A stretch of 64,000 nt of DNA from Cafeteria roenbergensis (Eukaryota; Sar; Bigyra; Bicosoecida; Cafeteriaceae). How positions within the stretch are numbered: position 1 is the stretch's first letter; each line of letters starts with the position of its first letter. Below the pieces are notes generated by a model. The model made no database searches. It was not told where the DNA came from and saw nothing but the letters and a program-made list of their open reading frames with translations. The position numbers and the translations under genes are program-made. The DNA lies in contig VLTN01000087.1 of the NCBI GenBank assembly GCA_008330645.1, forward strand, positions 1-64,000. Reading direction: 5' to 3'. Below are positions 9,001-59,739 of the stretch, piece after piece.

Positions 9001-9413
9001 CCGAAGCGTGCCCGACACGGTGCCCACCGCGCCGGCGACCGTGCCCGCGTCGTTCAACACGACCATGCGCACCTCCACCGTGAGCACCTCCGCCGTGGAC
9101 GGCGAGGACGCCGAGTTGGTCAGGTTGCCAAGGCTCACCACCACGCCCCCCAGGCCGCTCCCTGTGATGCCCGACGTCGCCGCCGCCGCGAGCGCACTGA
9201 ACGCGCCCCCGCTCGACGACAACGACGACCCGCCGCTAGACTCCGTGATCGACACCACCTCCAGAATACGCAACACGGACCCCGGACTGGTGTCGCTCAG
9301 CGCCAGCTCCACCTCCGCCAACGACGTCGTCCCCTCCGGCACCGTGATCGCAGCGAACGCCGTCACGCGAGACCCGATGACCGCCTCCGAGTCCGACGAC
9401 GTCGCCGAGTCCG
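1..9413 (-). repeat. 969-bp tandem repeat array inside a protein-coding gene (at least 9.7 copies)
   Basis: A 969-bp unit (323 codons) is repeated head to tail with copy starts near 1, 970, 1939, 2908, 3877, 4847, 5817, 6786, 7755 and 8724. The last copy breaks off at about 9413, where unique sequence begins. The array continues past the left edge, so the true copy number is unknown. Copies differ by only a handful of substitutions, for example C/T near 1718, A/G near 4520 and A/G near 4643. Two copies carry one extra base: a C in the run at 4706-4708 and an A in the run at 5661-5663. The unit length is a multiple of three, and the minus-strand frame is open through every copy, as expected for an expanding coding repeat. 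Near identity points to recent expansion or concerted evolution. Confidence 0.97.
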
Positions 9414-36977: not shown

Positions 36978-39296
36978 ATGGCGGCTGCTGGCGCAGCTGC
37001 AACTGCAGCGCTGGCGAGCGCCGAGGAAGCAGGAGCCACGCTGGCGGCGAGCGGGTGGGACGCCGGCCACTCCGTGCACGTGGGCTCGTACGAGCAGTGA
37101 GCCAGCGGAAAGGCTGCCAATCTGGCCTTGCGTTCGCATGTTGTCTGACTTGTGGGCTCTGGGGCGGACCAGTGACCGCGTTGAGCCGACCCTCGGCCTA
37201 GCTTGCCGCAGCAGCCACCGACCTGTCCGCGTGCGATTCCCGGTCCCCGCAGCGCGAGCTTTGGCACCAGCGATACGCTGCATAGTCTGTTTGAGGCGTC
37301 GTGCGCGCGGAGCCCGACGGCAGAGGCAGTGCTTGAAGTCGACTCCGGGGAGTCTGTGACCTTTGCGGAACTGAACGGTGAGGCGACAACAGAGAGCCGC
37401 GCGCCGCGCCCCATCCACCCGCCGGACACTGCAAACGGGGACCGCCGCCACGGTGGCGTGTGCTGTTGACTGCATTCGCTGCTCGCAGGCTTGGCGGACA
37501 ACGTCGCTCGCTGGCTCCTGGCCCGGGAAGGTGGCGGTGGAGGGACCCGAGGCGTGGTGGCGATTTTTGCTGCCAGGTCCATCCAGACCCTTGCGTGCAT
37601 CCTGGGAATCCTCAAGGCCGGCTTTGCGTACCTACCTGTTGACCCAGGCCAACCTGCTGAGCGGGCCCAGTGTCTGATCGAGGACAGCGGGGCGATGACG
37701 GTTCTGTTCGCCTCAAGCCTTTCTGCGGCAGCAGCTGCGGTCAAGCGCGAATGCCAGCGATCGGAAACGGCATGGGTCGCCCAAGACGAAGCCTGCAACA
37801 GCGACGCGCGCCACCACTTGTCTTGCGCGGCGGCTGGGAGTGCGGCAGGATCCGCTGCCGCACTGGGCTCAGCCAGACTGGCAACGCCATCAACGCAGTG
37901 GGCAGTCGGAGAAGGACCTGACCAAAAAGCGGGCGCGGCTACGCCGTCGTCGCTGGCGTACATCATCTACACCAGCGGCTCCACGGGCAAGCCCAAGGGC
38001 GTGGGGGTGGAGCACCGGTCGGCGGTGAACTACATGCGCGCGTCGGCGACGGTGTACGAGCCGCGTTCGTCCGACCGCTGGCTGCAGTTCGCGTCGTTGT
38101 CGTTCGACGCGAGCGTCGAGGAGGTGTTCGTGCCGCTGTGCAACGGCGCGACGGTGGTGCTCCGATCGTCGGAGATGACCCTGTCGGCGTCGGACTTCAT
38201 GTCGGCCTGCGAGTCTCGCGGGGTGACGGTGATGTCGTGCGCGACGGCGTTCTGGCACCAGCTGGTGGACAGCGTGACTCGCGGCGAGACGCGGGTTCCC
38301 GGAAGCGTGCGCCTGGTCGTGATCGGGGGCGAGGCCTGCAACCCGTCTCGTCTGGTTGCGTGGGAGCGCGCGTGCCCGGGGGTACCCGTGGTGAACGCGT
38401 ACGGCCCGACGGAGGCGACGGTGAGCACCCACCTGTGGCGCAGCGACGGCTCGTTGTCGGAGGGGTGCGCGTCGGTTCCCATCGGGCGCGGCCTTCCGGG
38501 CGTGCGGTCGTACGTGCTGGACCGGGAGCGTCGCACGCCGGTGCCGGTGGGGGTGGTGGGGGAGCTGTACGTCGGCGGGCTTTGCCTGGCGCGAGGCTAC
38601 CTGGGCCGCGACGACCTGACGGCAGACCGTTTCGTGCCAGACCCGTTCGCGGACGACGTGTCGCGCTCGGTGGACGGCCGCATGTACGCGACGGGCGATC
38701 TGGTGCGCATGGGCGAGGACGGCACGCTGACGTACGTGGGCCGCGCGGACGACCAGGTGAAGATCCGCGGCTTCCGCATCGAACTGGGCGAGATCGAGGA
38801 GGTGGCGCGGCGCCACGACTCCGTGCAGGACTGCGTGGTGCGCGTGGTGAAGGTGGGCGGCACCCAGCATCTGGTGGGGTACGTGGTGTGGGCGTCGGAG
38901 TCGCAGTCGACGGCGTCGCTGGCGTCACTGCGGGAGGGCATGTCGCGGTCGCTGCCATCGTACATGGTTCCGTCCGCACTGCTGGAGCTCGCGAGCATTC
39001 CCACGACGGCGCTGGGGAAGATCGACTACCGCGCTCTGCCGGTGCCGTCCGAGGAGGACTTCGTGTCGTCGGAGTCGTACGTGGCGCCGAGCACAGAGGT
39101 GGAGCAGGCGCTTGCGGATGTTTGGTCGGAGGTGCTCCAGCGGGACAAGGTGGGCGTGATGGACAGCTTCTTCGAGCTGGGCGGGGACAGCATCCTGAGT
39201 CTGCAGGTGGTGTCGCTTTGCGGCCAGCGAGGGCTGAACGTGCGGCCGAAGCTCCTGTTCGAGCACCCGACGATCCGCGCTCTGGCGCAGCAAGTG
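36978..39296 (+). other. NRPS module 1: initiation module A1-T1
   Basis: There is no condensation domain before A1, so this module should load the first residue. After about 45 residues of N-terminal leader, A1 shows [33 protein letters not shown] (the ATP-binding motif), [26 protein letters not shown] and [12 protein letters not shown] with the catalytic Lys. The first third (to about 37936) differs from the other A domains; from there to about 39292 it is nearly identical to them. T1 carries the phosphopantetheine Ser in [10 protein letters not shown] (codon 39189-39191). No E domain follows, so residue 1 should stay L. Confidence 0.93.
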
Positions 39297-42200
39297 GACG
39301 GTTGCGAATCGCTGCAGCGCCGTACCATTGTCGCGGGTTCAGGATTCGCAGCATCTTGCCTTCGTCTTTCTGCCATGCTTGGAGACGTTTCTGAGACTGC
39401 ACAGGTGCTGCCTGTGTCGTCACTCCAAGCAGCCATGCTCTTGGCTCACGCATCGGCTTGTGAGGCATCTCGTCCAGATCCGTACTTGACCCAAGACTCG
39501 GTCGTGCTGCCAGCAAGATGGAGCGCCTCGTCTCTGCGATTGGCGATGACTCGGCTCGTTGAGCGGCACTCGTTGCTGCGGGCGTCTTTCCGCCAGACAT
39601 CAAGCGGCGAGTTTGTTGCGATCGTGAACCCACCTGAGGCTGCGTCTTCGGTCGTCGAGCATGCTCTGGTCGAGTCTCTTTGCGCCGACATTGAAGAGGT
39701 GGCGGGCGCGCGGGCTGCCAAGCCGCTCGATCTTTGGCATGGGCAGAGCTTTTTCATCGACATGCTTCCGCCTCGCCCAGACGGGTCGAGGGAAGCGGCT
39801 GTCACAATTCATCACGTAGTGGTAGATGGGTGGTCTGCGAACCTCTTCTACGAAGAGCTTGCGAGCCTGTGCGATTTGCCTTCGGCCCCCCTCCCTCCTG
39901 CAGGGCGCATCGAAGGCTGGCTGGAGTGGACCATGTCCCAGTCAGAGGTTGCTGGAAAGGCAGCGTGGGAGCGGGTCTCCGGTGGCCTGCTGGCGGAGCC
40001 CTTCAAGCTGGACATCGACCGCGGAGACACGCTGGAGACCATGGCGGGCCCAAGGTCAAAGTGGGTGACGGTTCCTGGAGCTGGCCGCATTTTCAGCGCC
40101 CGCCACCTTGCTGCCAGTCGCACCTCGCTTTCGACCTTCAGCTTTGGCGCGTGGTTGCTAGCTCTTGAGGCCATGACTTCATCCGACTCCGGCGTTCGGC
40201 GAGCCGTCAGCGGGATGACTGTGGCCATTCGTCCCAGCGAGGTCGCCGATTGCGATCGCCTGCTCGGCTTGCTAATCAACACTGTTCCCGTGCCTTTCTT
40301 GTGGAATGACTCCGAGAGCGCGGGAGACGCTCTTCGACGGCTGCAAAGTGTGTGCCTTGAGGTAGCCGAGCAGGGCCACTGGGCGTGGTCGAAGATCAGG
40401 CAGTGGTGTTCGTCCCCCGATGCGGAAGCAGCTGCAGTCGAGCTGCGCAACCTTTTCGTCTTCGAAAACTACCCATCGGCAAGCGAGGAGGCAGTCCAGC
40501 GTAAGGAGCTCGTGGGTGTCACGGATGTGCCACTGACCCTGACTTGCATTCCCGGAGACGACGAGACACGCATTCAGTTGGCATGGCAGCCTGCTTTGGT
40601 TTCGGACGCTGACGCCCACCGCCTCCTTCGATTGGTGGAGGCCAACCTGGTGGAGCTAAGAAATGCCGCCGTCGCCAACGCACTTGATTCCACAGCCCTG
40701 CCTGCAATTCCAGAGCATGACCTCTCAATCCAAGCAGATGAGTTGCCGTCTCCTGCCAAGGAGAGCAGCTCCACGCTGTGGAGCCTTGTCAAGGCGGCTG
40801 TTGCGGCCAACCCGGACGCCATCGCGGTCACGGACGGGAGCGACAGCATCACCTACGCGGAGCTCGACCGCCGCTCGGCTCTGCTAGCCGCCGCGCTGCA
40901 GCGCCGAGGCGCCGGCGCTGGAGGAGTGGTGGGCGTGCTGCTGGGCCGGAGCGTGGACGCCATCGTGTCGCTGGTGTCGGTGCTGCGCTGCGGCGCGGCG
41001 TACCTGCCGCTGGACCCGGGCCAGCCAGTGAGCCGGCTGGCGTACATGGTGGAGGACAGCGGCGTGGGGGTGGTGCTTGTGAACGGCGCATCGTCCGGCC
41101 GGGCGGCGGAGTCGCTTGCGGCGATGGAGGGCGAGGGCGCGGCCGCTCGCGTGCGGGTGCTGGACGTGACGGCGCTGGGCGGAGCGGTCGGCGAGGGCGC
41201 ATCGGCAGGCGGCGCATCGGCCGCTGGCGGCGGCGCCGCGGTGGGTGAAGACGCTGGCGCGGCTACGCCGTCGTCGCTGGCGTACATCATCTACACCAGC
41301 GGCTCCACGGGCAAGCCCAAGGGCGTGGGGGTGGAGCACCGGTCGGCGGTGAACTACATGCGCGCGTCGGCGACGGTGTACGAGCCGCGTTCGTCCGACC
41401 GCTGGCTGCAGTTCGCGTCGTTGTCGTTCGACGCGAGCGTCGAGGAGGTGTTCGTGCCGCTGTGCAACGGCGCGACGGTGGTGCTCCGATCGTCGGAGAT
41501 GACCCTGTCGGCGTCGGACTTCATGTCGGCCTGCGAGTCTCGCGGGGTGACGGTGATGTCGTGCGCGACGGCGTTCTGGCACCAGCTGGTGGACAGCGTG
41601 ACTCGCGGCGAGACGCGGGTTCCCGGAAGCGTGCGCCTGGTCGTGATCGGGGGCGAGGCCTGCAACCCGTCTCGTCTGGTTGCGTGGAGCGCGCGTGCCC
41701 GGGGGTACCCGTGGTGAACGCGTACGGCCCGACGGAGGCGACGGTGAGCACCCACCTGTGGCGCAGCGACGGCTCGTTGTCGGAGGGGTGCGCGTCGGTT
41801 CCCATCGGGCGCGGCCTTCCGGGCGTGCGGTCGTACGTGCTGGACCGGGAGCGTCGCACGCCGGTGCCGGTGGGGGTGGTGGGGGAGCTGTACGTCGGCG
41901 GGCTTTGCCTGGCGCGAGGCTACCTGGGCCGCGACGACCTGACGGCGGACCGTTTCGTGCCAGACCCGTTCGCGGACGACGTGTCGCGCTCGGTGGACGG
42001 CCGCATGTACGCGACGGGCGATCTGGTGCGCATGGGCGAGGACGGCACGCTGACGTACGTGGGCCGCGCGGACGACCAGGTGAAGATCCGCGGCTTCCGC
42101 ATCGAACTGGGCGAGATCGAGGAGGTGGCGCGGCGCCACGACTCCGTGCAGGACTGCGTGGTGCGCGTGGTGAAGGTGGGCGGCACCCAGCATCTGGTGG

Positions 42201-45200
42201 GGTACGTGGTGTGGGCGTCGGAGTCGCAGTCGACGGCGTCGCTGGCGTCACTGCGGGAGGGCATGTCGCGGTCGCTGCCATCGTACATGGTTCCGTCCGC
42301 ACTGCTGGAGCTCGCGAGCATTCCCACGACGGCGCTGGGAAGATCGACTACCGCGCTCTGCCGGTGCCGTCCGAGGAGGACTTCGTGTCGTCGGAGTCGT
42401 ACGTGGCGCCGAGCACAGAGGTGGAGCAGGCGCTTGCGGATGTTTGGTCGGAGGTGCTCCAGCGGGACAAGGTGGGCGTGATGGACAGCTTCTTCGAGCT
42501 GGGCGGGGACAGCATCCTGAGTCTGCAGGTGGTGTCGCTTTGCGGCCAGCGAGGGCTGAACGTGCGGCCGAAGCTCCTGTTCGAGCACCCGACGATCCGC
42601 GCTCTGGCGCAGCACGTGGCGCTTGCATCGGCAGGCGGGGCGAGTGTCGTGGCTGCGGAGCAGGGGACGGTGAGCGGCGAGGTGCCGCTGACACCGATCC
42701 AGCGCTGGTTCTTCAGTCAGCCGCTTGTGAACCGGGACCACTTCAACATGTCTTACAGCCTGTGGCTCGATGACTGCGTGACGCACGACCAGCTTGGGCG
42801 CAGCCTGGAGGCGCTGGCACTGTTCCACGACGCGATGGGGCTGCGCTTCGACGCTTCCGAAGAAGCTGCATCGATTCGCGTGGTTCAGCGCTGTGTTGGG
42901 GCGGAGCAGCGCCCGGGCAGCATTTCACTGTCTGTGGCCAGCGTGGATGGCCTGGGGGAGGACGAGGCCGTCGCGATCGACCGCATCGCAACGTCAGCGA
43001 GCGCGTCTCTTGACATTTCGCGGGGCCCGATTGCGAGCGCTGTGGTCGTGAGCGGTGGCGCTTCACCCGCTTCTCGCGCAGGCCGGTCTCGTCGGGTTGT
43101 ACTGGCGGTCCACCACTTGGTGGTGGATGGTGTGTCTTGGCGTGTACTGCTGCGAGACCTGGACTCGCTGCTTCAGGGCCTGCAGAGGTCAGGCCCAACA
43201 CTCCCATCTGCCGCAGAGCTTGCAGCCAGTTTGGGCCGCAAGTCGTCATCGTTCCGCGAGTGGTCGGGGCGTCTCAGGGGCCATGCAGAGGGCTCTGCGA
43301 GCCTTGCTGCGGAGGCGAAATTTTGGTCGGCGCAGCTGGCGGCGCCACTGCCGACTGTGAGATGCGACAGCGACGGAGCGAACACCGAGGCGTCTGGCTC
43401 AGAGGTGCGTCTGGCCTTCGACGAGGTCACAACCGATGCGTTGCTCAAGGGCTGCCATGCTGCTTTGGGAACTCGCATCGAGGACCTGCTTCTTGCCGCT
43501 CTTGCGGCATCCCTTGGCCGCGTTCTGTCGGTGTCAGACACTCTGGTGGAGATGGAGGCTCATGGTCGCGAGGACCTGTTCGATGATATCGACCTGTCGC
43601 GCACTGTGGGCTGGTTCACGGCATCCTACCCCGTGCGGGTGCATGGGGGCGACGGCCGCGACATGGTCGCGGTGGTGAAGAGCGCGAAGCAAGCACTTCG
43701 GTCGGTTCCCAACCACGGGATCGGCTATGGCCTCCTGGCCGGGACAGGCGCCGTTCCGTCAGACGAGGGTATCGAAGTGTCGTTCAACTACCTGGGGGTG
43801 TTCGACTCTTCATCGTCAGCCACTGCAAGCGGCGCAGGCGCTGCGGGTGCAGGACGCCGCCCGCTGGTGGGCATGGAGCGAGCAAACCCGGGGCATGTGA
43901 TCGACGGGCGCAACGAGCGGGCCAGGCTGCTCGAGGTGAACGCCGAGGTTGTCGACGGCCTTCTGTCGGTAGAGCTCGGCTACAGCCGGTTCCGGCACCA
44001 CCCAGACACCATGAAGGAGGTGGGACGTGCCTTTGAGCTCAGCTTGCGCAACTACCTGGGCATGTGCTCGTCTGGCGCGGCGATCGGGCGCACGCCCAGC
44101 GACTTCCCGCTGTGCGATGTGTCGCAGCCCGAGCTCGACGGCATCCTGGCGCGCCACGACCTTGCCCGCGTGGAGGACATGTACGCCCTGACGCCAATGC
44201 AGCAGGGAATGCTGTTCCACTCGGCGTACGCCGAGAGCCCGAGCGAGGATGTGTACTTTATCCAGGACTGGTTCCGCGTGTCGGGCTGCGTGGACTTGGG
44301 CGCGTTCCAGGCGGCGTGGAGCCACGTTGTGGAGCGCCACGCCATCCTGCGCACTGTGTTCGAGTGGGAGGGCCTGGCAGCGCCGGTGCAGGTGGTGCTC
44401 AAGGACGCGGGTCTCGAGTGCGCGCGAGAGCGACTTGCGAGGGCTTGGTGAGGCCGAGCAGGCAGCTGCGCTGCGTCGTGCGTCGGTCGAGGACCGCGAG
44501 CGCGGTTTCGACCTCCGCAGCCGGCCGCCGCTGCGCATGCACGGGTTCCGTGTTTCGGACGGCGAGGCACGTGTGCTGCTGAGCGTGCACCACGTGCTCG
44601 TGGACGGCTGGAGCAACTCCATCATCGCGGGCGAGGTCCACGATGTCTACGCGGCGCTGGTGTCCGGCGGGAGCCCTCCGAGGCGGGCACCGGTGCGTTG
44701 CCCGTACTCTGGCTACGTGCAGTGGCTCCGTGGTCAGTCGCTGTCCGATGCAGAGGACTTCTGGCGGGGTCAGCTGCAGGGTTTGGAGTCCCCGACCCCG
44801 CTTCCGTTCCGCTCGCTGTCGGAGGGTAGAGAGGGCGCTGCTGTGCCCATGGGAGGGTACCACACGCTTGAGGCAACTGTGCGCATTCCAGGCGCCTCAG
44901 ACCTGCGCCGTTCCGGGCTGACACTGAACACGCTCGTTTGCTCGTCATGGTCGTTGCTGCTGTGGCAGTACACTGGCGAGCCAGACGTGCTGTTCGGCGT
45001 CACCGTGGCGGGCCGCCCGGCGTCGCTGAAGCACGTGGACGAGGCGGTTGGCCTGTTCATCAACACCGTGGCCTTGCGGGTCCCCATCCCGAGCATGCCG
45101 CCGGCAGTGACCAGCGGCAGCTCCACGCGCGGTTCAGGGTGCGGGGCGTGGCTAGCGGAGGTGCAGAGCCGGCTTAGCTCAGTGCGCGAGTTCGAGCACA

Positions 45201-48200
45201 CGCCGCTGAGTCGCTTGCAGGGGTGGTCTGACATGGGCTCGGAAGGATCCTTGTTCCATACGCTGGTGGTCTTTGAGAACTATCCTGCCGAGGATCATCC
45301 GAGCACGTCCTTTTCCATTGCGTATGCCGACAGCGACGAGAAGGAGCGAACGAACTTCCCCGTGGTGCTGACGGTGGTGCCACACCCTTCTGGCGACTCG
45401 CTCGAGATGGAGCTCGGTTTCTACGACGGCAGGGTGAGCGCCGCTCAGGCTGGTCGCCTGCTGGACCATCTCTCAGGACTGATCCAGGGGCTTGCTGGCG
45501 CGGCGCCGAGCTCAAGTCGGGAGTCTCTTGCAGATGTGGTCGTTTCAGCGTCGCGTGGCTGCGCTGGCGGGCAGTCAGTGCATTGGGCCGGAGCGCCAAG
45601 CAGCCGCGACAGTGCCGACGAAACGCTGTGGATCCTTGTCAAGGCGGCTGTTGCGGCCAACCCGGACGCCATCGCGGTCACGGACGGGAGCGACAGCATC
45701 ACCTACGCGGAGCTCGACCGCCGCTCGGCTCTGCTGGCCGCCGCGCTGCAGCGCCGAGGCGCCGGCGCTGGAGGAGTGGTGGGCGTGCTGCTGGGCCGGA
45801 GCGTGGACGCCATCGTGTCGCTGGTGTCGGTGCTGCGCTGCGGCGCGGCGTACCTGCCGCTGGACCCGGGCCAGCCAGTGAGCCGGCTGGCGTACATGGT
45901 GGAGGACAGCGGCGTGGGGGTGGTGCTTGTGAACGGTGCATCGTCCGGCCGGGCGGCGGAGTCGCTTGCGGCGATGGAGGGCGAGGGCGCGGCCGCTCGC
46001 GTGCGGGTGCTGGACGTGACGGCGCTGGGCGGAGCGGTCGGCGAGGGCGCATCGGCAGGCGGCGCATCGGCCGCTGGCGGCGGCGCCGCGGTGGGTGAAG
46101 ACGCTGGCGCGGCTACGCCGTCGTCGCTGGCGTACATCATCTACACCAGCGGCTCCACGGGCAAGCCCAAGGGCGTGGGGGTGGAGCACCGGTCGGCGGT
46201 GAACTACATGCGCGCGTCGGCGACGGTGTACGAGCCGCGTTCGTCCGACCGCTGGCTGCAGTTCGCGTCGTTGTCGTTCGACGCGAGCGTCGAGGAGGTG
46301 TTCGTGCCGCTGTGCAACGGCGCGACGGTGGTGCTCCGATCGTCGGAGATGACCCTGTCGGCGTCGGACTTCATGTCGGCCTGCGAGTCTCGCGGGGTGA
46401 CGGTGATGTCGTGCGCGACGGCGTTCTGGCACCAGCTGGTGGACAGCGTGACTCGCGGCGAGACGCGGGTTCCCGGAAGCGTGCGCCTGGTCGTGATCGG
46501 GGGCGAGGCTTGCAACCCGTCTCGTCTGGTTGCGTGGGAGCGCGCGTGCCCGGGGGGTACCCGTGGTGAACGCGTACGGCCCGACGGAGGCGACGGTGAG
46601 CACCCACCTGTGGCGCAGCGACGGCTCGTTGTCGGAGGGGTGCGCGTCGGTTCCCATCGGGCGCGGCCTTCCGGGCGTGCGGTCGTACGTGCTGGACCGG
46701 GAGCGTCGCACGCCGGTGCCGGTGGGGGTGGTGGGGAGCTGTACGTCGGCGGGCTTTGCCTGGCGCGAGGCTACCTGGGCCGCGACGACCTGACGGCAGA
46801 CCGTTTCGTGCCAGACCCGTTCGCGGACGACGTGTCGCGCTCGGTGGACGGCCGCATGTACGCGACGGGCGATCTGGTGCGCATGGGCGAGGACGGCACG
46901 CTGACGTACGTGGGCCGCGCGGACGACCAGGTGAAGATCCGCGGCTTCCGCATCGAGCTGGGCGAGATCGAGGAGGTGGCGCGGCGCCACGACTCCGTGC
47001 AGGACTGCGTGGTGCGCGTGGTGAAGGTGGGCGGCACCCAGCATCTGGTGGGGTACGTGATGTGGGCGTCGGAGTCGCAGTCGACGGCGTCGCTGGCGTC
47101 ACTGCGGGAGGGCATGTCGCGGTCGCTGCCATCGTACATGGTTCCGTCCGCACTGCTGGAGCTCGCGAGCATTCCCACGACGGCGCTGGGGAAGATCGAT
47201 TACCGCGCTCTGCCGGTGCCGTCCGAGGAGGACTTCGTGTCGTCGGAGTCGTACGTGGCGCCGAGCACAGAGGTGGAGCAGGCGCTTGCGGATGTTTGGT
47301 CGGAGGTGCTCCAGCGGGACAAGGTGGGCGTGATGGACAGCTTCTTCGAGCTGGGCGGGGACAGCATCCTGAGTCTGCAGGTGGTGTCGCTTTGCGGCCA
47401 GCGAGGGCTGAACGTGCGGCCGAAGCTCCTGTTCGAGCACCCGACGATCCGCGCTCTGGCGCAGCACGTGGCGCTTGCATCGGCAGGCGGGGCGAGTGTC
47501 GTGGCTGCGGAGCAGGGGACGGTGAGCGGCGAGGTGCCGCTGACACCGATCCAGCGCTGGTTCTTCAGTCAGCCGCTTGTGAACCGGGACCACTTCAACA
47601 TGTCTTACAGCCTGTGGCTCGATGACTGCGTGACGCACGACCAGCTTGGGCGCAGCCTGGAGGCGCTGGCACTGTTCCACGACGCGATGGGGCTGCGCTT
47701 CGACGCTTCCGAAGAAGCTGCATCGATTCGCGTGGTTCAGCGCTGTGTTGGGGCGGAGCAGCGCCCGGGCAGCATTTCACTGTCTGTGGCCAGCGTGGAT
47801 GGCCTGGGGGAGGACGAGGCCGTCGCGATCGACCGCATCGCAACGTCAGCGAGCGCGTCTCTTGACATTTCGCGGGGCCCGATTGCGAGCGCTGTGGTCG
47901 TGAGCGGTGGCGCTTCACCCGCTTCTCGCGCAGGCCGGTCTCGTCGGGTTGTACTGGCGGTCCACCACTTGGTGGTGGATGGTGTGTCTTGGCGTGTACT
48001 GCTGCGAGACCTGGACTCGCTGCTTCAGGGCCTGCAAAGGTCAGGCCCAACACTCCCATCTGCCACAGAGCTTGCAGCCAGTTTGGGCCGCAAGTCGTCA
48101 TCGTTCCGCGAGTGGTCGGGGCGTCTCAGGGGCCATGCAGAGGGCTCTGCGAGCCTTGCTGCGGAGGCGAAATTTTGGTCGGCGCAGCTGGCGGCGCCAC

Positions 48201-51200
48201 TGCCGACTGTGAGATGCGACAGCGACGGAGCGAACACCGAGGCGTCTGGCTCAGAGGTGCGTCTGGCCTTCGACGAGGTCACAACCGATGCGTTGCTCAA
48301 GGGCTGCCATGCTGCTTTGGGAACTCGCATCGAGGACCTGCTTCTTGCCGCTCTTGCGGCATCCCTTGGCCGCGTTCTGTCGGTGTCAGACACTCTGGTG
48401 GAGATGGAGGCTCATGGTCGCGAGGACCTGTTCGATGATATCGACCTGTCGCGCACTGTGGGCTGGTTCACGGCATCCTACCCCGTGCGGGTGCATGGGG
48501 GCGACGGCCGCGACATGGTCGCGGTGGTGAAGAGCGCGAAGCAAGCACTTCGGTCGGTTCCCAACCACGGGATCGGCTATGGCCTCCTGGCCGGGACAGG
48601 CGCCGTTCCGTCAGACGAGGGTATCGAAGTGTCGTTCAACTACCTGGGGGTGTTCGACTCTTCATCGTCAGCCACTGCAAGCGGCGCAGGCGCTGCGGGT
48701 GCAGGACGCCGCCCTCTGGTGGGCATGGAGCGAGCAAACCCGGGGCATGTGATCGACGGGCGCAACGAGCGGGCCAGGCTGCTCGAGGTGAACGCCGAGG
48801 TTGTCGACGGCCTGCTGTCGGTAGAGCTCGGCTACAGCCGGTTCCGGCACCACCCAGACACCATGAAGGAGGTGGGACGTGCCTTTGAGCTCAGCTTGCG
48901 CAACTACCTGGGCATGTGCTCGTCTGGCGCGGCGATCGGGCGCACGCCCAGCGACTTCCCGCTGTGCGATGTGTCGCAGCCCGAGCTCGACGGCATCCTG
49001 GCGCGCCACGACCTTGCCCGCGTGGAGGACATGTACGCCCTGACGCCAATGCAGCAGGGAATGCTGTTCCACTCGGCGTACGCCGAGAGCCCGAGCGAGG
49101 ATGTGTACTTTATCCAGGACTGGTTCCGCGTGTCGGGCTGCGTGGACTTGGGCGCGTTCCAGGCGGCGTGGAGCCACGTTGTGGAGCGCCACGCCATCCT
49201 GCGCACTGTGTTCGAGTGGGAGGGCCTGGCAGCGCCGGTGCAGGTGGTGCTCAAGGACGCGGGTCTCGAGTGGCGCGAGAGCGACTTACGAGGGCTTGGT
49301 GAGGCCGAGCAGGCAGCTGCGCTGCGTCGTGCGTCGGTCGAGGACCGCGAGCGCGGTTTCGACCTCCGCAGCCGGCCGCCGCTGCGCATGCACGGGTTCC
49401 GTGTTTCGGACGGCGAGGCACGTGTGCTGCTGAGCGTGCACCACGTGCTCGTGGACGGCTGGAGCAACTCCATCATCGCGGGCGAGGTCCACGATGTCTA
49501 CGCGGCGCTGGTGTCCGGCGGGAGCCCTCCGAGGCGGGCACCGGTGCGTTGCCCGTACTCTGGCTACGTGCAGTGGCTCCGTGGTCAGTCGCTGTCCGAT
49601 GCAGAGGACTTCTGGCGGGGTCAGCTGCAGGGTTTGGAGTCCCCGACCCCGCTTCCGTTCCGCTCGCTGTCGGAGGGTAGAGAGGGCGCTGCTGCGCCCA
49701 TGGGAGGGTACCACACGCTTGAGGCAACTGTGCGCATTCCAGGCGCCTCAGACCTGCGCCGTTCCGGGCTGACACTGAACACGCTCGTTTGCTCGTCATG
49801 GTCGTTGCTGCTGTGGCAGTACACTGGCGAGCCAGACGTACTGTTCGGCGTCACCGTGGCGGGCCGCCCGGCGTCGCTGAAGCACGTGGACGAGGCGGTT
49901 GGCCTGTTCATCAACACCGTGGCCTTGCGGGTCCCCATCCCGAGCATGCCGCCGGCAGTGACCAGCGGCAGCTCCACGCGCGGTTCAGGGTGCGGGGCGT
50001 GGCTAGCGGAGGTGCAGAGCCGGCTTAGCTCAGTGCGCGAGTTCGAGCACACGCCGCTGAGTCGCTTGCAGGGGTGGTCTGACATGGGCTCGGAAGGATC
50101 CTTGTTCCATACGCTGGTGGTCTTTGAAAACTTCCCCGAAGCGCACGATTCAAGTGAAGACTTCTGCATTGATGAAATCGACAGCGACGAGAAGGAGCGA
50201 ACGAACTTCCCCGTGGTGCTGACGGTGGTGCCACACCCTTCTGGCGACTCGCTCGAGATGGAGCTCGGTTTCTACGACGGCAGGGTGAGCGCCGCTCAGG
50301 CTGGTCGCCTGCTGGACCATCTCTCAGGACTGATCCAGGGGCTTGCTGGCGCGGCGCCGAGCTCAAGTCGGGAGTCTCTTGCAGATGTGGTCGTTTCAGC
50401 GTCGCGTGGCTGCGCTGGCGGGCAGTCAGTGCATTGGGCCGGAGCGCCAAGCAGCCGCGACAGTGCCGACGAAACGCTGTGGATCCTTGTCAAGGCGGCT
50501 GTTGCGGCCAACCCGGACGCCATCGCGGTCACGGACGGGAGCGACAGCATCACCTACGCGGAGCTCGACCGCCGCTCGGCTCTGCTGGCCGCCGCGCTGC
50601 AGCGCCGAGGCGCCGGCGCTGGAGGAGTGGTGGGCGTGCTGCTGGGCCGGAGCGTGGACGCCATCGTGTCGCTGGTGTCGGTGCTGCGCTGCGGCGCGGC
50701 GTACCTGCCGCTGGACCCGGGCCAGCCAGTGAGCCGGCTGGCGTACATGGTGGAGGACAGCGGCGTGGGGGTGGTGCTTGTGAACGGCGCATCGTCCGGC
50801 CGGGCGGCGGAGTCGCTTGCGGCGATGGAGGGCGAGGGCGCGGCCGCTCGCGTGCGGGTGCTGGACGTGACGGCGCTGGGCGGAGCGGTCGGCGAGGGCG
50901 CATCGGCAGGCGGCGCATCGGCCGCTGGCGGCGGCGCCGCGGTGGGTGAAGACGCTGGCGCGGCTACGCCGTCGTCGCTGGCGTACATCATCTACACCAG
51001 CGGCTCCACGGGCAAGCCCAAGGGCGTGGGGGTGGAGCACCGGTCGGCGGTGAACTACATGCGCGCGTCGGCGACGGTGTACGAGCCGCGTTCGTCCGAC
51101 CGCTGGCTGCAGTTCGCGTCGTTGTCGTTCGACGCGAGCGTCGAGGAGGTGTTCGTGCCGCTGTGCAACGGCGCGACGGTGGTGCTCCGATCGTCGGAGA

Positions 51201-54200
51201 TGACCCTGTCGGCGTCGGACTTCATGTCGGCCTGCGAGTCTCGCGGGGTGACGGTGATGTCGTGCGCGACGGCGTTCTGGCACCAGCTGGTGGACAGCGT
51301 GACTCGCGGCGAGACGCGGGTTCCCGGAAGCGTGCGCCTGGTCGTGATCGGGGGCGAGGCTTGCAACCCGTCTCGTCTGGTTGCGTGGGAGCGCGCGTGC
51401 CGGGGGTACCCGTGGTGAACGCGTACGGCCCGACGGAGGCGACGGTGAGCACCCACCTGTGGCGCAGCGACGGCTCGTTGTCGGAGGGGTGCGCGTCGGT
51501 TCCCATCGGGCGCGGCCTTCCGGGCGTGCGGTCGTACGTGCTGGACCGGGAGCGTCGCACGCCGGTGCCGGTGGGGGTGGTGGGGGAGCTGTACGTCGGC
51601 GGGCTTTGCCTGGCGCGAGGCTACCTGGGCCGCGACGACCTGACGGCGGACCGTTTCGTGCCAGACCCGTTCGCGGACGACGTGTCGCGCTCGGTGGACG
51701 GCCGCATGTACGCGACGGGCGATCTGGTGCGCATGGGCGAGGACGGCACGCTGACGTACGTGGGCCGCGCGGACGACCAGGTGAAGATCCGCGGCTTCCG
51801 CATCGAGCTGGGCGAGATCGAGGAGGTGGCGCGGCGCCACGACTCCGTGCAGGACTGCGTGGTGCGCGTGGTGAAGGTGGGCGGCGCCCAGCATCTGGTG
51901 GGGTACGTGGTTTTGAATTCGCAAGCGGCGGCAGAGGGATCTCGTCGCACCAAAGCAACCTCTCTGGTGTTTGAGTCTGTGGCCATGTCCGAGGTTCGAC
52001 TCTCTCTCAAGTCTGCGTTGCCATCGTACATGGTTCCGTCCGCACTGCTGGAGCTCGCGAGCATTCCCACGACGGCGCTGGGGAAGATCGACTACCGCGC
52101 TCTGCCGGTGCCGTCCGAGGAGGACTTCGTGTCGTCGGAGTCGTACGTGGCGCCGAGCACAGAGGTGGAGCAGGCGCTTGCGGATGTTTGGTCGGAGGTG
52201 CTCCAGCGGGACAAGGTGGGCGTGATGGACAGCTTCTTCGAGCTGGGCGGGGACAGCATCCTGAGTCTGCAGGTGGTGTCGCTTTGCGGCCAGCGAGGGC
52301 TGAACGTGCGGCCGAAGCTCCTGTTCGAGCACCCGACGATCCGCGCTCTGGCGCAGCACGTGGCGCTTGCATCGGCAGGCGGGGCGAGTGTCGTGGCTGC
52401 GGAGCAGGGGACGGTGAGCGGCGAGGTGCCGCTGACACCGATCCAGCGCTGGTTCTTCAGTCAGCCGCTTGTGAACCGGGACCACTTCAACATGATGTAC
52501 CTTCTTGAGTCCAAGCGTCACCTCTCTTCGGCAGAAGTTCGTGCTGCTGCCGTCGCACTTGTGGACCACCACGACGCTCTGCGCCATGTCTTCAAGACCT
52601 CGCCTGACTCGCCCTTCGGGCTCATTCAAGTCGCAGGAACTCTCGACGCACCAGAGGCGCTGTTGTTCGCCGAGGCCACTGTGTCTGTCGCTCCCTCGGC
52701 CCCTGTGGAGACCGTTGACGCCGAGTTTCGCCGAGTCTGCGGACCTATTCAATCGTCCTTGAGCTTGGAGGCCGGCCCGCTGTTTGCTACGTGTCTCGTT
52801 CATGCCGGTCCAGTGGACATGGTCCTCATGGTCGCCCATCATCTTGTGGTTGATGAAGTGTCTTGGCGAGTGCTCATCAGTGACATGGAAACACTGCTGA
52901 CCACCTCGGCAACGGGCCGGACGGCTCGTTTGCCGCCCAAGTCAACTTCATTCAAGGCATGGTCCAGGAAGTTGGCTGACTTCAGCTCCTCCCCTGAAGT
53001 GCTGAAGCAGCTGCCATTCTGGAAACAGCAGTGCTTGCCGCTTCCTGCTCCGTTTCCTGTGGACACTCCAGGGGGCACGAACACGGACTCCTCGACTTTT
53101 TTGCACTCAGTGGGCCTCACTGAGGCAGAGACCGCCTTGCTGGTGACTTCCTCTGCGCGTGCCTTTGGGACCAGGACGGAGGACTTGCTGCTTTCGGCGT
53201 TGCTCCTGTCGCTGTGGCGGTGGGCGGACTTGAGCGGGGTGCTGGTGGAAATGGAGGCTCACGGGAGAGAGGACGTGCTTGAGGGCGTCGACGTATCCCG
53301 CACCACTGGATGGTTCACGGCGGCATATCCGATTCGGCTCGATCTGTCGTCCGCTCGCATTCGAGGGACTGACATCGCTGGCGTGATCAAGTACGTGAAA
53401 GAGTCTCTGAGGCGGGTGCCGCAGCACGGGCTTGGCTTTGGGCTGCTGCGTTACGGCCCGGGTACCAGCGATGGCGACAGAGCCGCGCTGTCTGCGGAGC
53501 CGTCCATCACGTTCAACTTCCTGGGGAGCTACGATTCGACCTTCCAGGACGATGGAATGTTTGTCGAGCGGTCGCTCGACTGCGGCGACGTGATTCACCA
53601 GCACAACCAGAGGCCTCGGGCGGTTGAGGTCAACGCAGCCATCTCGGAGCGCCAGCTGACGGCAGAGTTTGCCTTCAGCTCGACTTTGCACTCTGAGGCG
53701 TCGGCGGGAAGTCTTTGCGACCACTTTCGTGACGCGCTGCTCGCAATCGTAGAGCTTTGCACGTCGTCTGAGACGGCGATTGGGCGCACGCCCAGCGACT
53801 TCCCGCTGTGCGATGTGTCGCAGCCCGAGCTCGACGGCATCCTGGCGCGCCACGACCTTGCCCGCGTGGAGGACATGTACGCCCTGACGCCAATGCAGCA
53901 GGGAATGCTGTTCCACTCGGCGTACGCCGAGAGCCCGAGCGAGGATGTGTACTTTATCCAGGACTGGTTCCGCGTGTCGGGCTGCGTGGACTTGGGCGCG
54001 TTCCAGGCGGCGTGGAGCCACGTTGTGGAGCGCCACGCCATCCTGCGCACTGTGTTCGAGTGGGAGGGCCTGGCAGCGCCGGTGCAGGTGGTGCTCAAGG
54101 ACGCGGGTCTCGAGTGGCGCGAGAGCGACTTGCGAGGGCTTGGTGAGGCCGAGCAGGCAGCTGCGCTGCGTCGTGCGTCGGTCGAGGACCGCGAGCGCGG

Positions 54201-57200
54201 TTTCGACCTCCGCAGCCGGCCGCCGCTGCGCATGCACGGGTTCCGTGTTTCGGACGGCGAGGCGCGTGTGCTGCTGAGCGTGCACCACGTGCTCGTGGAC
54301 GGCTGGAGCAACACAGCCATTCACATCGAAGCCGAAAAGCTTCTGACTATCTACTCTGCGGCCTCCAGGCTGACAAATTCGTCGGTGCTCACGTTTCCCC
54401 AGGGTGCGGTTTCGGCCCCGCCGCCTCCTTTCGCGGGATTCATTCGCTGGCTGCGCTCGCGAAACCCGTCGACGAGCTTCAAGTTTTGGACAGAGCACCT
54501 CAAAATGGTGCCGTCACAGTCGTCTGGGCTCGCCTTCCTCGGAGACGCGACAACCGGTGGACGCCAATCGCACTGGACTCCAAGCGTGTCACGTTTTTCG
54601 GAAATGAGCTCAGCCGTTCCAGCAGCTGGGCTTCAGAAGGCGGCAAAGCTCATGGGTGTGACGCTCGGCTCGCTGTGCGCGTCTGCGCTCTCACTGGTCC
54701 TGATGGAGTACACCACGGACCGGTGCGTGACAATCGGCTGCACCGTTTCGGGGCGCCCACCGTCGATTGCTGCCGTGGAAGATATCATCGGTCCATTCAT
54801 CAACACAATTCCGCTCGCGTTCCAAGAGCCCGATTCAACGACTTCTCTTGTCCGCTGGATGAAGGCTCAGCAGTCAAGGTTCGCGGACGCGCTTGAGCAC
54901 TCGCATTTGCCCTTGCCTGAAATTGCCAAGGGAACAGGAATCCGGGACCTTTTCCGCGTGCTCTATGTCTTCGAAAACTTTCCGGAACCGGACGAAGACG
55001 AGCCAGCTGCTGGCCGCCCCATCGTCGATTCCATTGACGGTGAAGGAACGGAGCGCACAAACTACCCGGCTGTGTTCACCTTGCAGACGACCCAGGACGG
55101 CGGTGCGGAGTCTGTCGCCGTGTGCTTCAGCTTTTACAGCGACATTCTTCCGGAAGCCACCGCAGCCAGGCTTCTCGGCCACTACCTCAGGCTTCTCCAG
55201 CGACTTCCCAACCTGCTTTCCAAGCGTGGAGCGACGCCCTGGGGCCTCGCGTCGCCCCTGAGCATCGGCGTTGGTCCATCGCGCGCTGTGGCAAAGCTTC
55301 GACAGGCAGAAGCATTCCGCGCCACGCCCAAGAGCGATTTCACAACGGCCACGCTGTGGATCCTTGTCAAGGCGGCTGTTGCGGCCAACCCGGACGCCAT
55401 CGCGGTCACGGACGGGAGCGACAGCATCACCTACGCGGAGCTCGACCGCCGCTCGGCTCTGCTGGCCGCCGCGCTGCAGCGCCGAGGCGCCGGCGCTGGA
55501 GGAGTGGTGGGCGTGCTGCTGGGCCGGAGCGTGGACGCCATCGTGTCGCTGGTGTCGGTGCTGCGCTGCGGCGCGGCGTACCTGCCGCTGGACCCGGGCC
55601 AGCCAGTGAGCCGGCTGGCGTACATGGTGGAGGACAGCGGCGTGGGGGTGGTGCTTGTGAACGGTGCATCGTCCGGCCGGGCGGCGGAGTCGCTTGCGGC
55701 GATGGAGGGCGAGGGCGCGGCCGCTCGCGTGCGGGTGCTGGACGTGACGGCGCTGGGCGGAGCGGTCGGCGAGGGCGCATCGGCAGGCGGCGCATCGGCC
55801 GCTGGCGGCGGCGCCGCGGTGGGTGAAGACGCTGGCGCGGCTACGCCGTCGTCGCTGGCGTACATCATCTACACCAGCGGCTCCACGGGCAAGCCCAAGG
55901 GCGTGGGGGTGGAGCACCGGTCGGCGGTGAACTACATGCGCGCGTCGGCGACGGTGTACGAGCCGCGTTCGTCCGACCGCTGGCTGCAGTTCGCGTCGTT
56001 GTCGTTCGACGCGAGCGTCGAGGAGGTGTTCGTGCCGCTGTGCAACGGCGCGACGGTGGTGCTCCGATCGTCGGAGATGACCCTGTCGGCGTCGGACTTC
56101 ATGTCGGCCTGCGAGTCTCGCGGGGTGACGGTGATGTCGTGCGCGACGGCGTTCTGGCACCAGCTGGTGGACAGCGTGACTCGCGGCGAGACGCGGGTTC
56201 CCGGAAGCGTGCGCCTGGTCGTGATCGGGGGCGAGGCTTGCAACCCGTCTCGTCTGGTTGCGTGGGAGCGCGCGTGCCCGGGGGTACCCGTGGTGAACGC
56301 GTACGGCCCGACGGAGGCGACGGTGAGCACCCACCTGTGGCGCAGCGACGGCTCGTTGTCGGAGGGGTGCGCGTCGGTTCCCATCGGGCGCGGCCTTCCG
56401 GGCGTGCGGTCATACGTGCTGGACCGGGAGCGTCGCACGCCGGTGCCGGTGGGGGTGGTGGGGGAGCTGTACGTCGGCGGGCTTTGCCTGGCGCGAGGCT
56501 ACCTGGGCCGCGACGACCTGACGGCGGACCGTTTCGTGCCAGACCCGTTCGCGGACGACGTGTCGCGCTCGGTGGACGGCCGCATGTACGCGACGGGCGA
56601 TCTGGTGCGCATGGGCGAGGACGGCACGCTGACGTACGTGGGCCGCGCGGACGACCAGGTGAAGATCCGCGGCTTCCGCATCGAGCTGGGCGAGATCGAG
56701 GAGGTGGCGCGGCGCCACGACTCCGTGCAGGACTGCGTGGTGCGCGTGATAGCACATGCAAGGTCGGAGCCTGAGCTTGTGGCCTTTTTGGTGCCAAGTT
56801 CAGCAACTTCTGGAGCATCTTTCGACGCCTCCAGGTTCGTCGCGGCGCTGCAGAAGCAGCTTCCGTCGTACATGATCCCGTCTCGTGCCTTCGTCTTGGG
56901 CGCCCTGCCAGTCACAGCGAACGGCAAAGTGGATCTTAAGGCCCTGTGTGCGTTGCCAGTCGACCATTCGGTTCCGCTTGGGGCTCAGGGCTGCCATTCG
57001 CGCGGTGACCCCAGAGAAGCAAGCTCGGCGAGCGAGCCGGCTGCTGCGGCAGCAGGTGCACGGCCAGTGCCAACTGTCGGTGAGGTTGCGGAGGCAGAGG
57101 CTGTTGACTCGGCTCTGCTTGGCGGGGTGGTGTCAGCTTTCGCATCGGTCCTCGGTGTGACGGAAGCCGAGGTGGACCCGCGACGCGACTTCTTCGAAAT

Positions 57201-59739
57201 GGGGGGACACTCACTGCAGTTCTTCGTCCTCGTGTCTCGGGTCAGGGCTGTGTGCGGGGCCCACCTGGATGCGGCAGCTCTGCTGGCGAGCGCCTCGCCG
57301 CTCGCAGCTTGCCGCTTAGCGACTGGTGCAAGCCGCGGGCTCATCGCCCAGGGCACCGGGACTAGCGCGAAACAGCCTCCAAGCCACCCCGAAGTAGCAA
57401 GCTCCATCGCTTCCGCGGCCGCACAGACATCGGGCAAACGGTTGGCGTGGCTCGTCGGGCTGAATGAGCCTGGCCTCGCCATTGTCGATTCCATGGGACT
57501 TGCAGCATCGATGGGGGACGCCGCAGCCGCAGCAAGTGGTGCAGCTCACGCCGAGCACGGGCTTGCGCTGCGCCGGGCGCCTGTTTTCGTTTTCCACCCA
57601 GCAGTGCAAAACCCGCTCGTGTTTCGGCGTCTCGCCTCCGAGCTGCGGGCTCTGGAGGCTCCTCGAGCTGCAAGGATCCGCCGCAAGGTCACTCTGCAAG
57701 TGGCTGGGCAGTCCCCTGCACGACCTCCGAGTGGCCGTGCCATGCTGCCTGGCCAACGTGGACGACAGCCGAGCTCTCAAGCCGCCCCACCCGCCGTGTC
57801 CACAGCTGCACGCCACGGGATGCACGGCAAGCCAAACTCGTCGCCCGTTCTCGGCCCGGCGTCTCACCGCCGCTCCCTGGGCGAGGACGACCTATCGCTG
57901 GTGGCAGCGGCCTCAGACAGCGCCACTCCGCTTGTGGGCTTCGGCTGCGACGCCATGGCCTTTCCTATTCCGTCCATCGAGTCGCTCTCGGCCGCTTACG
58001 TGGAGCTAATCCGCCGAGTCGGCGCAAGCGGCCCCGTTCGCTTGGTTGGGTACTCCTTCGGAGCGCGAGTTGCCGCGCAGGTTGCCGCCTCTCTGGAGCG
58101 CACGGGGGTGCAAGTTGCCTGCCTGGTTGCGATCGACAGCCCAGCGCCCGTGCCAGCCCCCCGCCTGCTGCCGGCTCCGTTCCCACTGCCACAGCGAACC
58201 GGCCAGGAGCGGGGCACGCGGTATCGCAACAGCGACGGTCTGCTTGCCGCCATGCACACTGCCCGCGGCCACTCCGCGGCAGCAGCCGCTTCAGCTGGCC
58301 GCGGCGCGTCCTTTGGTCGGCCGAGGGGTGCAAGCGAAGCCTGGGGTCAAGGTCCAAAACTGGATCCTCGTCGACGCAGTGACGACTGGGCAGCTGGTCG
58401 TGAGGGAACATCTCGTCGCTTTAGTGTTGAGGAGCGACGGACCCTGGATCCTGCCGGTGCGAACGCATCGCTCAGGGCTTCAACGACGTTGCCCGGAGTC
58501 TCAGGGAAGCCCGTGGCTCTTGCGACTGTGGTGTCGTCCGGGGAGTCTCGCACGGGCAGCAGCGGTGACCGGACGCCCATGCACCACGCGTGTGCGGGGC
58601 ACCCCTCGGCAAGGCCGGAGGACCATGCAACAGACCCCGCTGCTGAGGGCTCCGGCGAGGAAGCGTCTTTCCACTCGCCTTTGCTGAGTCCCGACCTTAA
58701 GGCCGCCGGTGGCCCTCCGCCCCTTGACGAAGAGCACGCGGACTTGCTGGGCGATCTCGTTGAGCATGCCGCCCTGCTGTTCGGCGCTGACTTGGAAGAC
58801 GAGGGCGTCGGGACAGACGAAGCGGTGGCAAGGCTCGGCAGTGCCGAGGCCGTGTGTGCTGCCCTTGCCAATGCGGTCGAGGTGGCGACTGGGTTGGACG
58901 CCGCAACTGCAGCTGACACGGTCGCGTCCCTGTGGGCGGAGCTGCAGTCAAGCGACGCAATGCTGTCGGCCTTCACCCTCAAGCGCCGGTTGCGGTGTGA
59001 CGTGGTTGTGGTGGTGGCTGTGGACGAGGACAGCGAGCAGAATTCCGCCGGCGCCGGTGGCTTGCTCCTTGGATGGGACAGGGCGACTCTTGGGCGGGTC
59101 CTGCTCGCAGCGTGCCCCGGCACTCACTTCAGTGTCGTGGCACAGCACGCTGCAGTGCTTGCGTGGCATCTTCATGCTGTGATTCACGGGGGCCTCGCCG
59201 CAGGAGGTGGAGCATGGCAGAGCGCGGGTATCGGCTTGTGGCGCTTCGCGAAGCACGGCCACGGCTCTCGCGCCTCCCAGCGCGTCTTGGCAGAAGCTGC
59301 CGCGGCTGCGCAGCGCGCTGCCTCCGCTGTGCTGCAAGGCGCAGCCAGCGAGTCCGGCCGCGCAACGGAAGCCTCCCGATCGCGCGCTGGCTCGCTCGGC
59401 GACTTTGTCCTGTCCCCTGCGCCGCCAATGCCTGGATCAGCCGGCTCCGATTCGGCAAGAGCACGGGCAGCGTCATTCGCGTCGCAGTTCACTCCGCCGG
59501 GCGCTCCTCAGTCTCTGCCAATCCGGCAAACTCCTCCGTCGCCGCTGCTGGCGCCGTCTGCCGGTGCTGCCTCGTCTGAAATGGCCCGCATCTCGCGCAA
59601 CCGTGCGGCGTCGTTGGCCACAGGGCAGGGCGCAGGCGAGCTGGCGGCAGCGACCCTTGCGGCGTCTATGGCCATTGTTGGGCGCGGCTCCGACGTGGCT
59701 CGACTCAGGTGGTCCGCAGATGCTGCTGACATGCCATGA
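36978..59739 (+). CDS. Five-module non-ribosomal peptide synthetase
   Basis: A multi-enzyme that activates amino acids as adenylates, loads them on carrier proteins, condenses them and releases a peptide. Domain order is A-T, C-A-T-E, C-A-T-E, C-A-T-E, C-A-T-TE. Exons 36978-37096, 37253-37377 and 37489-59739 are joined by introns of 156 and 111 bp (donors GTGAGC and GTGAGG); the first junction reads SYE-H-ASFG and the second FAELNG-LADNV inside the A1 domain. Six single-base length differences break the frame: short runs at 41686, 42337, 46733 and 51400, an extra base near 44421 and an extra G at 46552-46557. All lie in near-identical copies whose sister copies are intact. Allowing for them, the exons sum to 22,497 nt, exactly 7,498 codons plus stop, so the gene is probably whole. 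The introns argue against bacterial contamination. It starts 147 bp after the PPIL4-like gene. No PKS or tailoring gene adjoins it. Confidence 0.95.
39297..44060 (+). other. NRPS module 2: C2-A2-T2-E2
   Basis: C2 (about 39330-40690) is unlike the other C domains and keeps [10 protein letters not shown], the HHxxxDG motif. It follows a T domain without E, so it should accept an L-donor. A2 spans about 40780-42370 and T2 has its Ser at 42511-42513. E2 (about 42670-44050) shows [49 protein letters not shown] and FNYLGVFD, all standard epimerisation-domain motifs, so residue 2 should become D. One-base shortfalls at 41686-41687 and 42337-42339 break the frame within A2. Confidence 0.93.
44061..48912 (+). 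other. NRPS module 3: C3-A3-T3-E3
   Basis: C3 (about 44090-45500) opens with [15 protein letters not shown] and has [14 protein letters not shown], as expected for a C domain following an E domain (D-donor type). A3 begins at about 45622, T3 has its Ser at 47363-47365, and E3 is nearly base-identical to E2. The block repeats module 2 and 4 sequence with a spacing of about 4.85 kb. Length differences occur near 44421 in C3 and at 46552-46557 and 46733-46736 in A3; the last two compensate for each other. Confidence 0.93.
48913..53770 (+). other. NRPS module 4: C4-A4-T4-E4, with a divergent E domain
   Basis: C4 and A4 are near copies of C3 and A3, apart from short divergent patches at about 50123-50182 and 51909-52019. 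T4 has its Ser at 52255-52257. E4 (about 52420-53760) shares only its first residues with E2/E3, then diverges fully after HFNM at about 52494. It keeps [19 protein letters not shown] and FNFLGSYD, but its active-site motif reads [10 protein letters not shown], with Glu where HHxxxDG has Gly. Epimerisation at residue 4 is therefore likely but less certain than at residues 2 and 3. A one-base shortfall lies at 51400-51401. Confidence 0.9.
53771..57330 (+). other. NRPS module 5: C5-A5-T5
   Basis: The first half of C5 (53783-54312) is nearly identical to C3/C4, including [11 protein letters not shown]; the second half (54313 to about 55350) is unrelated in sequence but still C-domain-like ([20 protein letters not shown]). 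A5 is identical to the other A domains from about 55350 to 56747, then diverges in its C-terminal subdomain, ending [12 protein letters not shown] with the catalytic Lys. T5 reads [12 protein letters not shown] (Ser 57211-57213), a different carrier type from T1-T4, consistent with a carrier that hands over to a thioesterase. No E domain, so residue 5 should stay L. Confidence 0.92.
57331..59739 (+). other. NRPS thioesterase domain with large insert and Ser-rich tail
   Basis: A type I alpha/beta-hydrolase thioesterase that releases the peptide by hydrolysis or cyclisation. It shows VFVFHPA near its start, the nucleophile elbow GYSFGA (Ser codon 58054-58056), a likely catalytic Asp in AIDSPAP (58135-58137) and a likely catalytic His in GTHFSVV (59125-59127). 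Between Asp and His lie about 330 residues, far more than usual, mostly low-complexity Ser/Gly/Arg. A further polar insert (about 57660-57900) precedes the elbow. After the His, about 200 residues of Ala/Ser/Pro-rich tail contain RAGSL, RAASF and RAASL; RRFSV and RRSL lie in the inserts. These fit sites of basophilic kinases. Such inserts are unlike bacterial NRPS ends. Confidence 0.85.

Follow-up and report, generated by a model that had tools for sequence, protein, structure and literature searches.

A five-module NRPS gene with near-identical modules in the nuclear genome of Cafeteria roenbergensis

A stretch of 64,000 nucleotides of Cafeteria roenbergensis DNA (assembly GCA_008330645.1, contig VLTN01000087.1, positions 1 to 64,000; hereafter the window) carries a very long NRPS gene, and the locus raises the question of whether a protist nuclear genome encodes an ordinary modular assembly line for a pentapeptide, as was proposed in an earlier note made from the letters alone. 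We examined the domain anatomy of this gene, its relatives, the DNA likeness of its modules and the codes of its substrate pockets.

By translation of its pieces, the gene was found to extend on the plus strand from an ATG at 36978 to a stop codon at 59739, the two ends originally assigned to it, and by our arithmetic it comprises about 7,500 codons. Pfam matches and core motifs across 37491-59736 revealed AMP-binding (A), carrier (T), condensation (C) and thioesterase (TE) domains in the order A-T-C-A-T-E-C-A-T-E-C-A-T-E-C-A-T-TE, a total of 18 domains. Pfam, motifs and translation thus bear out the order A-T-(C-A-T-E)x3-C-A-T-TE of the earlier note, and colinear A, T and C domains with core motifs identify a type I modular NRPS. 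The epimerisation domains E2, E3 and E4 were found by motif search to carry the E motifs HHxxxD, RTxGWFTxxYP and FN(Y/F)LG, and a further E-domain motif, EAHGRE, was recognised by eye.

Module 1 (A1-T1, 37253..39297) consists of a unique A1 N-part to 37931 and a homogenised block at 37932-39297, with the T1 motif GGDSI at 39165. It is followed by C2 (39396..40739), a unique domain with the motif HHVVVDG, and by A2-T2-E2 (40773..44153), which DNA comparison found to be homogenised with module 3 and to contain frame breaks near 41690 and 42340. Module 3 (C3-A3-T3-E3, 44154..49005) has breaks near 44420, 46550 and 46730 and a divergent island at about 45279-45332. Module 4 (C4-A4-T4-E4, 49006..53849) has a frame break near 51400; its E4 (52495-53760) is unique, and the rest is homogenised except for a divergent patch at 51912-52018 and the island at which C3 and C4 differ. 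Module 5 (C5-A5-T5, 53850..57330) is homogenised at 53850-54312 and 55349-56748 and unique in the remainder, with the T5 motif GGHSL at 57187. All of these modules lie on the plus strand, as does the thioesterase (57610..59262), which includes a long low-complexity insert. The TE was matched to PF00975 at E 3e-16 over part of the profile (44-106 of 226), with weak PDB matches (best E 3e-8); this match, together with GYSFG at 58048 and GTHFS at 59119, is consistent with a terminal release domain that has a catalytic Ser and His.

Two introns of the form GTGAG...CAG were predicted in the 5' end of the gene, one of 156 nt (37097..37252, plus strand) and one of 111 nt (37378..37488, plus strand) that lies within the A1 motif of A1. 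At the sequence level both proposals held, as in-frame stops are present in both introns if read through, and predicted splicing restores the A-domain A1 motif. Upstream is a PPIL4-like cyclophilin-RRM gene (35407..36830, plus strand); its cyclophilin match is a partial one, and for its RRM the best PDB match is PPIL4 (E 9.7e-27). Because of the two 5' introns and this neighbor, we regard the NRPS gene as eukaryotic, in agreement with the earlier note, and a bacterial contaminant was ruled out. A virus-borne copy was also considered and set aside, as single-protein queries of IMG/VR with C4 and A5, which reach close relatives only, returned no close relative. An MFS transporter gene (33375-34895, minus strand) precedes both the PPIL4-like gene and the NRPS; it could encode an exporter, although nothing was seen that connects it with the NRPS. 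Other genes of the window include two for large proteins, one with a Reelin subrepeat B match (18919-23391, minus strand, E 2e-12) and one with EGF_2 and teneurin-type EGF matches (23773-29289, plus strand), and an open frame of 1343 residues (29334-33365, minus strand) with no Pfam match at E 0.001.

In its C-A-T-E modules, its DCL-like C domains after E and its terminal TE, the synthetase resembles bacterial modular NRPSs such as those of tyrocidine, gramicidin, pyoverdine (PvdL) and bacitracin. The best PDB matches were likewise bacterial, with LgrA for A5, PvdL for C4, C2 and E3, and then tyrocidine synthase 2 for E3. The highest bacterial identities among the matches listed were 44% for A, 39% for C4, 34% for E3 and 30% for C2; these matches represent the best 80 of at least 592 genome stretches and 15-30 of 163-2267 plasmid records, and a nearer relative may exist. 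A particular bacterial donor was sought, and none was seen among the matches listed. C4 scored 49 bits against the fungal TqaA vs 261 bits against PvdL, and by Pfam the gene ends in TE rather than in a fungal-type terminal C_T domain. The phylogeny of C and E domains suggested in the earlier note was realized on its bacterial side, where E3 and E4 fell in a bacterial E clade and C4 and C5 among DCL or post-E domains; on the fungal side the sequences comprised PDB chains only, which makes for a thin comparison. By contrast to the bacterial systems, the Cafeteria NRPS is encoded by a eukaryotic gene with introns, and all its A domains are alike and homogenised in DNA.

This likeness is where the locus departs from an ordinary assembly line, a description that fits its domain anatomy but not its modules, which are near-identical in DNA. 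Sixteen pairwise module matches of 345-3384 nt were detected at 99.48-99.79% DNA identity. Among the five A cores the DNA identity is 99.5-99.8%, silent sites included, and the same holds for T1-T4, for C3/C4 and for E2/E3. The five-copy A core is 915 nt long (55834..56748 in module 5, plus strand), with copies that begin at 37932, 41256, 46106, 50957 and 55834. Copy number is five for this core, four for the A N-part and for the A tail with T, three for the first ~460 nt of C, and two for the rest of C3/C4 and for E2/E3; the A1 N-part, C2, E4, most of C5, the A5 tail, T5 and TE each occur once, in divergent form. The borders of the homogenised blocks are abrupt and differ between modules. Within the near-identical stretch of C3/C4 is a divergent island of 54 columns, of which 29 are identical, and the patch near 51912-52018 similarly interrupts the likeness of A4; these islands suggest that the copies had diverged before they were overwritten. 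In five indel-free, partly overlapping comparisons, the differences between copies were 12 synonymous vs 2 non-synonymous, which argues that the likeness of the modules comes from copying and not from selection on the protein.

Such identity could also be a matter of youth, and high GC a matter of ancestry, if the modules had recently been duplicated in tandem from a single GC-rich source, such as bacterial DNA acquired not long ago. The module repeats are indeed highly identical in register at a spacing of ~4850, a distance beyond the longest period of TRF (500), which listed no tandem repeat here. Among 87 bacterial NRPS loci used as a yardstick (60 with at least two A domains, most no longer than ~7.5 kb, seven of ~41 kb), internal repeats of at least 500 nt at 99% were absent, and one locus exceeded 95%, with a repeat over two A domains at 98.5% identity that offers a possible bacterial parallel. 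This one locus is an NRPS of a Burkholderia arboris plasmid, in which the two A-domain segments, at 6689 and 28437, are alike over 1379 nt through either homogenisation of bacterial A domains or recent copying. Simple tandem duplication was nonetheless disfavoured, as in the Cafeteria gene each module has its own borders of identity and the repeats enclose divergent islands. Silent-site composition, presented below, bears on this explanation from both sides, and overall we consider recent duplication unlikely.

Comparison of the module copies revealed that the frame breaks listed above are six single-base indels, and the gene as printed is not the single open frame that had been assumed. All six lie inside the near-identical blocks (~14.9 of 22.5 kb; chance ~0.09 by our arithmetic, the unique parts having no second copy for indel comparison), and five of the six are within runs of 3-6 equal bases. 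A frame break was also observed in an unrelated array of 969-bp repeats in the same window, between the minus-strand ORFs 2-4789 and 5359-15252. This pattern favours, to a degree, the explanation that the real modules differ and that assembly or polishing collapsed the repeats or replaced one with another in the consensus. It would be surprising, however, if such an artefact made silent-site GC increase with copy number, and the unique domains sit in clean positions between the copies; we consider this account improbable. The indels themselves resemble unpolished long-read error where short reads could not be placed, and errors of this type would affect the frames and leave the likeness of the copies untouched. 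The six breaks might alternatively be read as the decay of a pseudogene. Yet the A1 N-part, C2, E4, C5 and T5-TE are open in their own frames by translation, the motifs of the C, E, T and TE domains are retained, the differences between copies are mostly synonymous as counted above, and the breaks are located where sequencing error is expected. Decay thus appears very improbable, and the breaks are most likely assembly error, that is, sequencing error left in the repeats, in a gene that is probably functional.

The GC content of fourfold-degenerate sites (GC4) was found to rise with the copy number of the domain part, from 0.627 at one copy (1530 sites) to 0.689 at two (488), 0.813 at three (134), 0.839 at four (192) and 0.901 at five (202). 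Over 14 segments, which were delimited after the blocks had been seen, the Spearman correlation of GC4 with copy number was 0.87 (p 4.5e-5); a division into 126 blocks, each 30 codons long, gave a rho of 0.56 (p 8e-12, uncorrected for neighbourhood, and neighbouring codons are not independent). Both values describe one window. Homologous domain parts that differ in copy number gave the same picture: the A N-part has a GC4 of 57/94 (0.606) in the single-copy A1 vs 103/124 (0.831) in the four copies (p 3e-4), the A tail with T 77/133 (0.579) in module 5 vs 58/68 (0.853) in the four copies (p 7e-5), and the C N-terminus 57/95 in C2 vs 66/84 in the three copies (p 0.0096). The increase stands out where a part has at least three copies and is slight or missing for two-copy parts, with C5 at 114/180 vs C4 at 135/186 (p 0.073) and no difference detected between the two-copy E3 (191/285, 0.670) and the single-copy E4 (167/254, 0.657; p 0.78). 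Four other long ORFs of the window have a GC4 of 0.59-0.66. Codon positions 1 and 2 displayed no GC trend by eye. Polarising the differences within the five-copy core was uninformative, with one S->W singleton and three columns of other patterns.

A similar rise was observed outside the NRPS. About ten near-identical copies of a 969-bp repeat (1..9457, minus strand) form an array in an unrelated giant gene (ORF 5359-15252 and on), in which three units have a GC4 of 0.905 vs 0.640 in the unique part of the same gene. One unit has a GC4 of 0.900 vs 0.652 in the diverged stretch of equal length before the array (82/317 protein columns identical). Multi-copy genes under conversion are known from histone-gene work to turn GC-rich, and the rise with copy number in two genes points to GC-biased gene conversion and argues against an assembly artefact. 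It also bears on recent duplication: the little or no rise in the E2/E3 and C3/C4 pairs would suit that explanation, but GC varies with copy number at homologous domain parts, and a GC-rich donor is disfavoured because it would be needed twice, once per gene. Codon selection on strongly conserved domains could in principle raise GC without any biased conversion, and A cores are among the best conserved parts of NRPSs. The same parts, however, are GC-poor where they occur in one copy (the A1 N-part and the A5 tail with T5, as above), the array of the other gene is GC-rich as well, and the first two codon positions lack the trend, all of which makes codon selection a poor candidate. Taken together, silent-site identity between copies, mosaic borders and silent GC that rises with copy number, although not in the two-copy E pair, fit concerted evolution by GC-biased gene conversion.

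The substrate pockets were read by alignment to E. coli EntF, for which the code returned was DVWHFSLVD, in agreement with its established code. The code DAESVGAVS was found in both A1 and A5, and Lys517 was seen in the A5 alignment; for A2-A4 the code was taken from the near-identical DNA. Part of the A3 pocket lies in an out-of-frame stretch. Glu at position 239 was present in 46 of 208 A-domain rows, a set that includes A1 and A5 of the window and EntF and is biased in that its rows were picked by likeness. Arginine A domains cluster, according to excerpts of PMC12283262, at D-A/V-E-D-I/V/L-G-A-V/I-T/D-K, with which DAESVGAVSK agrees at 8/10 positions. The lysine code of BacB is given as DAESIGSV in excerpts of PMC3207962 and agrees with DAESVGAV at 6/8 positions, the others being I/V and S/A. 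Lysine as the sole substrate was the candidate favoured initially and was widened to arginine or lysine in light of the arginine cluster of PMC12283262. All five A domains are thus likely to accept one and the same basic amino acid, with Arg or Lys as the candidates under a code that was learnt on bacteria, and because the five A domains are near-identical a homo-pentamer is predicted.

Phylogenetic trees were used to assign stereochemistry. E3 and E4 grouped within a bacterial E clade of 16 rows (100/100). In the larger tree, whose bootstrap had not settled, C4 and C5 fell in a clade of 14 rows that includes 12 of the tree's 14 post-E rows (90/84); the smaller tree placed them in a DCL/dual clade (95/84), where their partners, at weak support (83/69), were two dual-like domains and not post-E ones. 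C4 and C5 are therefore read as post-E C domains of DCL type, and C3, which was outside the C tree, is near-identical to C4 in DNA. C2 placed nominally with DCL/dual domains (95/84, 96/84), nearer to these than to LCL, on very long end branches (2.58 and 3.26). Given the placement of E3 and E4 among bacterial E domains, the near-identity of E2 to E3 and the grouping of C4 and C5 with post-E domains, the anatomy fits the earlier claim of a TE-ended, five-module synthetase of a pentapeptide with three D-residues, and the predicted product is an L-D-D-D-L pentamer of one basic residue. T1-T4 all have GGDSI, the form usual before E, while module 1 is without E; T1 has this form because it belongs to the copied block. 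The GGDSI of T1 and the DCL-leaning C2 hint at the possible loss of an E1.

Based on these results, we think it probable that the gene encodes a nuclear, colinear, bacterial-like type I NRPS that joins one basic residue in an L-D-D-D-L pattern and whose modules are kept alike by recurrent GC-biased gene conversion. Module 1 would load Arg or Lys as the basic amino acid; each of modules 2-4 would append a further unit of that residue and epimerise it to D, module 5 would append a last one in the L form, and the TE would release the pentamer as a linear or cyclic product. The modules would formerly have been different, and conversion between segments of the one gene would now maintain one and the same substrate pocket at all five positions, with C2, E4, most of C5, T5 and TE remaining distinct.

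Several known systems share one or another of these features. epsilon-Poly-L-lysine synthetase (Pls) uses one A domain iteratively; the NRPS of Cafeteria may likewise polymerise a single basic amino acid but differs from Pls in having five A domains and a TE. In the gene of spider aciniform silk, AcSp1, concerted evolution keeps the repeats more than 98% alike (PMC3933166, in excerpt); the repeating unit of the NRPS, by contrast, is a catalytic module of several domains, and unique domains stand between the repeats. Module duplication in algal type I PKSs has produced related modules within one megasynthase (PMC4661987); these are PKSs, however, and the excerpts of that paper make no mention of homogenisation at the DNA level or a GC gradient. 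Gene conversion is named in excerpts of PMC9205934 as a homogenising force that blurs the duplication history of assembly lines.

The earlier statement that multi-module NRPSs with epimerisation domains are little described from protists is fair, but too strong in view of what excerpts of the algal literature already report. NRPSs were found in 7 of 32 algae, the largest in Bigelowiella natans (490 kDa, 10 domains) and one of like arrangement in Aureococcus anophagefferens (460 kDa) (PMC4661987, 2015). The NRPS of B. natans apparently includes an epimerase, a tripeptide NRPS is likely in Cyanophora, and six NRPSs were reported in a Euglena transcriptome (PMC7073580). A PKS-NRPS hybrid is described from Chrysochromulina (PMC4580454). 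Excerpts of PMC6431247 and PMC5583390 contained no statement relevant to the Cafeteria gene. The synthetases of B. natans and Aureococcus are thus, like that of Cafeteria, multi-module NRPSs of protists, with an apparent epimerase in B. natans; they have 3 C domains and 10 domains vs the 18 domains and ~7,500 codons here, and homogenised A domains are not mentioned in the excerpts of PMC4661987 and PMC7073580. A description of near-identical A domains in a protist NRPS was not found in the literature, which was surveyed mostly at the level of titles.

A five-module NRPS with three epimerisations is rare in protists, and its predicted product is simple and checkable. The chemistry itself has precedents; a eukaryotic NRPS whose modules evolve in concert would be a novel form of it. 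Domain parts in one, two, three, four and five copies within one ORF serve as internal replicates, by which the GC bias of conversion may be measured in a protist. It is an evenly balanced proposition, in our judgment, that GC-biased conversion among coding repeats is strong enough here to be read as a copy-number series in one ORF and ties the five pockets together, such that the amino acid could be changed only at all five at once; the homopolymer would then be a by-product of the recombination machinery, and the C and E domains would determine its D/L pattern. Conversion of this type could restrain or synchronise the evolution of assembly-line specificity.
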